64,000 nt of DNA from Chloroflexota bacterium (GTDB lineage Bacteria; Chloroflexota; Dehalococcoidia; Lucifugimonadales; Lucifugimonadaceae), in assembly GCA_013204545.1 (NCBI GenBank), contig JABMNN010000093.1, positions 1 to 64,000 of the forward strand, in the 5' to 3' direction. Below the pieces are notes generated by a model. The model was given only the letters and a program-made list of their open reading frames with translations, made no database searches and was not told the DNA's origin. Each line of letters starts with the position of its first letter. The stretch's first letter is position 1. Position numbers and translations under genes: made by a program. Below are positions 1 through 2,357 of the stretch, piece by piece.

Positions 1-154
1 TCAGGGTGACGGTCAGCACGATGCGGTCCGGCAGCGGCTCTGGCTCGCCGAAGGTGTCGATCCACCACCAGGCACCGCCGCCGACGGCCAGGAGCATGAC
101 CAGCGACACGGCTCCGACGATGGCAAGAAGACCGACCAGGAAGCGTCGTATCAT
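1..154 (-). CDS. N-terminus of SppA-like signal peptide peptidase (partial, runs off the window)
   Basis: Fifty-one codons are visible from an ATG at 154 reading leftwards out of the window. The peptide starts MIRRFLVGLLAIVGAVSLVM, a membrane anchor of about 25 residues, followed by a GGGAWWW stretch and a segment ending LPDRIVLTVTL. This matches the start of SppA-type (S49) signal peptide peptidases of Alphaproteobacteria, which cleave leftover signal peptides in the membrane; no catalytic residue lies in the visible part. The DNA is very GC-rich (about 70%), like the adjoining 3' end of aroC and unlike the rest of the window, so it probably belongs to a foreign segment. The family call rests only on the N-terminal pattern. 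Confidence 0.5.
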   Translation of the reverse strand, partial: MIRRFLVGLLAIVGAVSLVMLLAVGGGAWWWIDTFGEPEPLPDRIVLTVTL

Positions 155-237
155 GCGGAGCCCGTTGCGCTTGTGATCAGGTGCGGAGTCTACCGACGGC
201 GGCCCGACTTGTCGAACCCGGGCGGACGGGGACGGCT

Positions 238-1368
238 CTACTGCTGGCCGCTGCCGAGTGGCCCGCACTGCGCCTCGTGGCGCATCAGGTGGTCGAGCAG
301 GACACAGGCCATCATGGCCTCCCCGACCGGCACCGCCCGAATGCCGACGCAGGGGTCATGGCGACCCTTGGTGACGACCTCGACCTCGGCTCCGAACCGG
401 TCGATCGAACGCCGCGGTGTCAGGATCGAGCTGGTCGGTTTGACCGCGAACCGCACCACCAGATCCTGGCCGGTGGAGATGCCGCCGAGGATGCCGCCGG
501 CGTGGTTCGAGAGGAAGGTCGGGCGGTCGCCGTCCATGCGCATCTCATCGGCGGCCTCGTGGCCGGGAATCCCGGCGGCTGAAAAGCCGTCGCCGATCTC
601 CACCCCTTTGACCGCGTTGATGCTCATCATCGCGTGAGCCAGCCGTGCATCGAGTTTTCGATCCCAATGCACATGACTACCGAACCCTACTGGCGCACCG
701 AAAGCAACGACTTCAAAAACCCCACCGATAGTGGTGCGTTCTTTTTTTGATTTATCGATCGCAGCCTTGAATCTGGAGTCTGCGTCAGCGTCAGACGCAC
801 GAACCTCGGAACCCTCTACAGCATTCCAATCTACGTCTACCGTCGCGACCGAACGACCATCCTGATCACCAGTCGCCACTGCTCGTGAGTGGATTGAAAT
901 CCCGATTTCTTCAAGTAATCGCCTTGCTATCGAGCCGGCAGCGACTCGAGCGGCTGTTTCACGGGCAGAGGCTCGCTCCAACACGTTGCGAAGATCGTGC
1001 TGAACGTATTTCAGCGCTCCAGCGAAATCTGCATGCCCAGGAACGATCTTCGTGTACACCTTTTTATCGACGTCATCTCCAACTTCGGAAACAGACATAG
1101 CTTCTGTCCAGTTGACAAAATCACGGTTTTCGATCCACATAGCGATTGGCGAACCGAGAGTGATGCCATGCCGTACTCCTGACCGAATGTCGGCGTGATC
1201 CTTCTCGATCTTCATCCGACCACCGGAACCATAGCCCTTTTGCCGACGAGACATCTGTTTTTCGATGTACTCCTCGGTCAATTCCAGACCAGCAGGGATT
1301 CCCTCAACAATTACAGTGAGGCCAGGACCATGTGATTCTCCGGCTGTGAGGTATCGAAATGTCGTCAT
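238..1368 (-). CDS. aroC: Chorismate synthase AroC (chimeric)
   Basis: Converts 5-enolpyruvylshikimate-3-phosphate to chorismate using reduced FMN, the last step of the shikimate pathway. At 376 residues it is full length. It opens with TAGESHGPGLT and has RRQKGYGSGGRMKIE, the conserved ERASARETAARVA block, SNHAGGILGGISTG and GRHDPC. It is a mosaic. The first ~240 residues (DNA from 1368 down to about 650) are near 47% GC and read like Chloroflexota AroC. The last ~135 residues (about 640 down to 238) are near 70% GC and read like alphaproteobacterial AroC, for example VGIRAVPVGEAMMACVL. The switch lies in the conserved AMMSINAVKGVE stretch. It is either a metagenomic misjoin or a real recombination; the reading frame stays intact. 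On the left it continues into an SppA-like gene of the same high GC. Confidence 0.9.
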   Translation of the reverse strand: MTTFRYLTAGESHGPGLTVIVEGIPAGLELTEEYIEKQMSRRQKGYGSGGRMKIEKDHADIRSGVRHGITLGSPIAMWIENRDFVNWTEAMSVSEVGDDVDKKVYTKIVPGHADFAGALKYVQHDLRNVLERASARETAARVAAGSIARRLLEEIGISIHSRAVATGDQDGRSVATVDVDWNAVEGSEVRASDADADSRFKAAIDKSKKERTTIGGVFEVVAFGAPVGFGSHVHWDRKLDARLAHAMMSINAVKGVEIGDGFSAAGIPGHEAADEMRMDGDRPTFLSNHAGGILGGISTGQDLVVRFAVKPTSSILTPRRSIDRFGAEVEVVTKGRHDPCVGIRAVPVGEAMMACVLLDHLMRHEAQCGPLGSGQQ

Positions 1369-1505
1369 TCGTATAGATTCTCGTTATTTACTAGCGAACA
1401 ATTGGATTCGCAATTATCCGATCAGATCACGGCGGTACTCATTCACAGAGACCAGCAGTGGCTTTGCAGCCACGATTATATGCAGTTGTAATAAATTACT
1501 AGCGT

Positions 1506-2357
1506 CTAGCCAGATTTCAGAGCATGTTCTATCGCTTTAAACATCGTGCCGACTGGCGCTGTCTGCCCTGTTGCCATCTCGAAACCTTCGATCCCTTGGA
1601 ACACAAGCATTGTCATGCCACCGGCTGCTTCCCCGCCGGCTTCTTCTACCTCTCGTAAGAACTTTGTCATCGGCGGAGCGTAGACAGCGTCGTAGCCGAC
1701 AGCCTCGGCAGAAATCATGTCGGCCGTCACCGGGGTAGCCAACTCAGCCGGTCCACCAGCCATTCCTAATGACGTGGTGTTCACCAGCAACGTCGCGTAC
1801 GGAACGTAGTCCGAAAGCTCATCGCGACTTATGCCGATGGCATTCGGTTTGAATCGACCTTCGGAAAAATCTGATGCCAGCGTTCGCGCGTTCTCAATGG
1901 TTCTATTGGCGATAGTGAGGCGATTGACCCCGGCGGTTTTAAGTGCATAGACGATGGCACGTGCCGCACCACCAGCTCCAAACACGACTGCATCAGCTCC
2001 ATTAGGGTCAAACCCGACTTTTTCCTTTAGCGCCCGTAGGAACCCTGTGCTGTCAGTGTTGTGGCCAATGAGCTGGCCGTCTCGATTGAATATCCAGTTG
2101 ACGGCTCCAACAGCTTCCGCGGCTTCTGTAAGTTCGTCGACCATCGGTATCACTGCCTGCTTGTACGGCAATGTCACGCAGGCAGCAAGAAAACCGCTTG
2201 TCCTGAATGTGGCAATTTTCTCTTCGAGTTCATCTGGCATGACGTCCCATGCCTCAAATGTTTCTTTGATGCCAAGTTCGTCCAGTCCAGCCTGTTGAAA
2301 TATAGGGGATTTCGTGTGACCAATAGGATGGCCCATCACGCCGATGTTGCTGCTCAT
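1506..2357 (-). CDS. aroE: Shikimate dehydrogenase AroE
   Basis: NADPH-dependent reduction of 3-dehydroshikimate to shikimate in the cytoplasm. At 283 residues it has the usual family length. The N-terminal substrate domain shows GHPIGHTKSPIFQ, the catalytic Lys in LPYKQAVIP and the NTDSTGF loop (a variant of NTDG). The Rossmann domain begins with FGAGGAARAIVYAL, and the C-terminal helix has MLVFQGIEGFEMATG. The start fits the family (MSSNIGVMGHPIGHTKSP). It lies between ruvX and aroC on the same strand. The 28-base gap to ruvX suggests co-transcription with alaS-ruvX, and aroC follows after about 137 bases. tyrA and aroA at 62.5-64 kb supply further steps of the pathway. Confidence 0.95.
   Translation of the reverse strand: MSSNIGVMGHPIGHTKSPIFQQAGLDELGIKETFEAWDVMPDELEEKIATFRTSGFLAACVTLPYKQAVIPMVDELTEAAEAVGAVNWIFNRDGQLIGHNTDSTGFLRALKEKVGFDPNGADAVVFGAGGAARAIVYALKTAGVNRLTIANRTIENARTLASDFSEGRFKPNAIGISRDELSDYVPYATLLVNTTSLGMAGGPAELATPVTADMISAEAVGYDAVYAPPMTKFLREVEEAGGEAAGGMTMLVFQGIEGFEMATGQTAPVGTMFKAIEHALKSG

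Follow-up and report, generated by a model that had tools for sequence, protein, structure and literature searches.

How a single open reading frame at the end of contig C83 (109,682 bp) came to encode a chorismate synthase of mixed base composition and ancestry is the question raised by this locus. The window analysed here spans positions 1 to 64,000 of that contig, with window base 1 being the contig end, in an assembly of 134 contigs and 2.95 Mb that is estimated to be 92% complete and 3.2% contaminated. The original prediction described a chimeric aroC joined in a conserved motif and left misassembly and homologous recombination undecided as its cause.

Two sources within one open frame

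The product of the aroC frame matches the chorismate synthase profile PF01264 over its full length (E 1.4e-117, profile positions 1-327, above the curated cut-off), and as assembled the gene is a chimera of two chorismate synthase proteins (Table 1). GC content is 0.689 for bases 1-604, 0.523 for bases 633-1368 and 0.501 for bases 633-64000. Windows of 604 bases across the rest of the stretch have a mean GC of 0.500 (sd 0.023, maximum 0.573 among those sampled), placing bases 1-604 approximately 8 sd from that mean, and within the frame GC3 is 0.47 in the N part versus 0.89 in the C part. The predicted fall in GC, from 69% in 1-604 to 50% in the rest of the window, does take place inside one open frame; the interval originally assigned to the switch, 238-700, contains it but understates the foreign part, which reaches window base 1.

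Table 1. Features at the base 1 side of the 64,000-base window
Feature	Position	Strand	Description
aroC frame	238-1368	-	Open, full-length chorismate synthase, PF01264
N-terminal aroC part, native to host	633..1368	-	Mean 88% amino acid identity to 16 same-genus AroC; tree
C-terminal aroC part, alphaproteobacterial	238..604	-	86% amino acid identity to L027; 39% to host genus
28-base word with which contig C33 also starts; almost certainly the misjoin site	605..632	-	Exact match
aroE, native, upstream neighbour of aroC	1506..2357	-	Genus order aroE-aroC-aroK-aroB
Foreign high-GC segment, almost certainly misjoined	1..604	.	68.9% GC; tree places the C part beside an alphaproteobacterium
sppA-like gene start, alphaproteobacterial, 51 codons, truncated by the contig end	2..154	-	44-46% identical to the L027 SppA-like start

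Separate trees of the two halves, the check put forward with the original prediction, yielded no single consistent phylogeny, so the claim of a chimera stands. The window AroC falls inside the host genus in the N-part tree. The C-part tree joins the chimera to L027 (Alphaproteobacteria bacterium isolate bin.58; support 100/99) among the Alphaproteobacteria, and places the AroC half found on contig C33 with the host genus. As a separate observation on public assemblies, a contig filed as the actinobacterium Enemella evansiae TN21-6 (L054, JAFKDC010000019.1) has an AroC that groups with Rhodobacteraceae, and is probably contamination of that assembly.

The switch is placed within positions 605-632 because DNA similarity to the genus stops at window position 593 (the motif being conserved in both sources) and similarity to L027 starts at 633. 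This interval lies within the motif MMSINAVKGVEIG, as expected from the predicted junction in a conserved motif, and its 28-base word, CGATGATGAGCATCAACGCGGTCAAAGG, encodes the conserved AroC motif MMSINAVKG. The two sources are identical and indistinguishable inside this interval; positions 1-604 are foreign and those from 633 onward native. Mismatches to the word number 1-5 in 44 of 80 alphaproteobacterial loci and 3-6 in all 16 genus loci, and because relatives on both sides differ at so few positions, it is not surprising that two organisms of one sample should have the exact 28-mer in common. Another public MAG contig (L100:1-20, JAQSDT010000168.1) ends at the same AroC motif (TGATGTCGATCAACGCC...), suggesting that assemblies may repeatedly break at this motif.

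L027 was the nearest relative of the AroC C part in a genome collection that represents each of 84,980 species by a single genome. After its aroC, L027 has an SppA-like gene on the same strand, which is also the gene order of window positions 1-604; as both the aroC tail and the SppA-like start match this order, the segment represents a contiguous alphaproteobacterial aroC-sppA-like piece, with no patchwork. On its own, the 51-codon fragment matches no Pfam family, and the remainder of the SppA-like protein was searched for in the bin and not found; the name SppA is a putative one, taken from the resemblance to L027 and from the earlier call. Both the alphaproteobacterial style of the high-GC AroC end and the SppA-like start that follows it had been predicted, and the protein identities (Table 1) together with the C-part tree confirm them. 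The donor is placed at the level of an alphaproteobacterium. A DNA search of plasmid records returned, among the matches listed, only ordinary aroC at 66-77% identity; one short match at 95-99% identity stood outside those listed.

The native continuation of the host gene

Searching the same genome with window positions 1-1500 found a second place, on contig C33 (3,561 bp). The first 40 bases of C33 equal window positions 632..593 (minus strand) with one mismatch, and its bases 1-28 equal 632..605 (minus strand) exactly, such that C33 starts precisely at the fork; the mismatch is outside the exact stretch, on the foreign side. In order, C33 contains the AroC C-terminus, aroK (shikimate kinase), aroB (3-dehydroquinate synthase), a ThiS-family gene and a partial gene for a PLP-dependent enzyme. 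A PF01264 search of the genome found only these two places, which between them hold a single N part and two C parts, and a second complete aroC copy was searched for in the genome and not found.

Continuing the host N part into C33 gives an AroC of 393 aa, compared with 393-398 aa in genus relatives. The comparison set was the 16 same-genus genomes with a full-length AroC; two others were left out, one in which aroC was not found (G002) and one in which it is present only as a fragment at a contig end (G018). Against these 16 proteins, the joined C83-C33 AroC has a mean identity of 0.88 in residues 1-246 and 0.87 in the C part; the corresponding values for the AroC as assembled are 0.88 and 0.39. 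In all 16 genomes aroC is unbroken and the order is aroE-aroC-aroK-aroB; one of them, G013, consists of a single 3.09-Mb contig.

If C33 were instead a contig of a contaminant or of a second strain, the chimera could be the true gene of the host, a reading in keeping with the estimated contamination of the bin and with the one differing position in the 40-base overlap. However, C33 has the GC of the host (50.1%), shows 80-92% identity to the genus over its part of AroC and carries, in aroK and aroB, the neighbours conserved in every genus genome compared, and the differing base lies beyond the exact stretch. Even were C33 from a sister strain, window positions 1-604 would remain foreign to the genus, and this reading is considered extremely improbable.

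Origin of the chimera

The half-and-half aroC is almost certainly an interspecies misassembly at a contig end. Three marks expected of such an error were found: an exact word shared by both sources, a native continuation elsewhere in the assembly and a foreign origin of the joined piece. This explanation is supported by the native continuation, which sits on a separate contig beginning exactly at the junction. The sequenced sample was presumably a metagenome, in which the host aroC and an alphaproteobacterial aroC would have shared the 28-base word; the assembler would then have passed from the N half of the host gene to the C half of the alphaproteobacterial one, running from position 604 down to 1 and stopping inside sppA, and the true continuation of the host (AroC C-terminus, aroK and aroB) would have been left over as the separate 3.6-kb contig. 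The error would on this account have arisen in the assembly, and not in the cell. An overlap of 28 bases would point to a de Bruijn assembler run with a small k. The chimeric gene lies at a contig end (the base 1 side of C83), and in mock-community assemblies chimeric sequences were always at contig ends (PMC8172020).

The alternative of homologous recombination would have part of the host population carrying a chimeric aroC made with alphaproteobacterial DNA, with C33 derived from unrecombined cells. It is consistent with a joint in a conserved homologous stretch and with a frame that stays open across it, but the open frame discriminates nothing, because orthologues joined at homologous codons stay open either way. 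Moreover, the foreign tract is not seen to return to host sequence, continuing through the end of aroC into the donor sppA as far as base 1, where the contig ends; the identical stretch is only 28 bases long between genes that are otherwise very divergent (39% amino acid identity beyond it); the native continuation starts exactly at the shared word; and nothing similar was seen in any same-genus genome. A minority of host cells with an inter-phylum recombinant aroC, joined at this motif and bearing the start of the donor sppA, is judged very improbable. Of the two explanations originally left side by side, misassembly is favoured by the start of C33 at the junction, and recombination is unsupported.

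Consequences for the assembly

As a misassembly, the chimeric AroC is unsuited both to tree building and to arguing for gene transfer. The assembly can be corrected by dropping bases 1-604 from C83 and joining C83 to C33, the resulting scaffold having the aroE-aroC-aroK-aroB order of the relatives. Where a transfer is suspected near a contig end, a simple check is to look elsewhere in the bin for a native remainder starting at the same word.

At the opposite end of C83, the last 134 bases (G000:C83:109549-109682; L113:3550-3683) form a repeat that recurs within C9 and C133 and at one end of C17; contigs C92, C25 and C107 end in the first 37-40 bases of this repeat. The right-end sequence is a short dispersed repeat where the assembly breaks.

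Comparison with known systems

The foreign segment resembles the aroC-sppA locus of L027 in the SppA-like gene that follows aroC on the same strand and in the 86% amino acid identity of the AroC C part, but L027 is not the donor species, the shared stretch being only ~81% identical at the DNA level. The order of the aroE-aroC-aroK-aroB cluster of the host genus is identical once C33 continues C83, whereas the window as assembled breaks the cluster inside aroC. Interspecies chimeric contigs from short-read metagenomes share with this case a join at a sequence common to two organisms and a foreign piece at the contig end (PMC8172020), as well as a native continuation that ends up on a contig of its own. 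However, the mock-community case joined close relatives (PMC8172020), whereas the organisms joined here are very distantly related and have in common a word of only 28 bases, which lies in a conserved protein motif.
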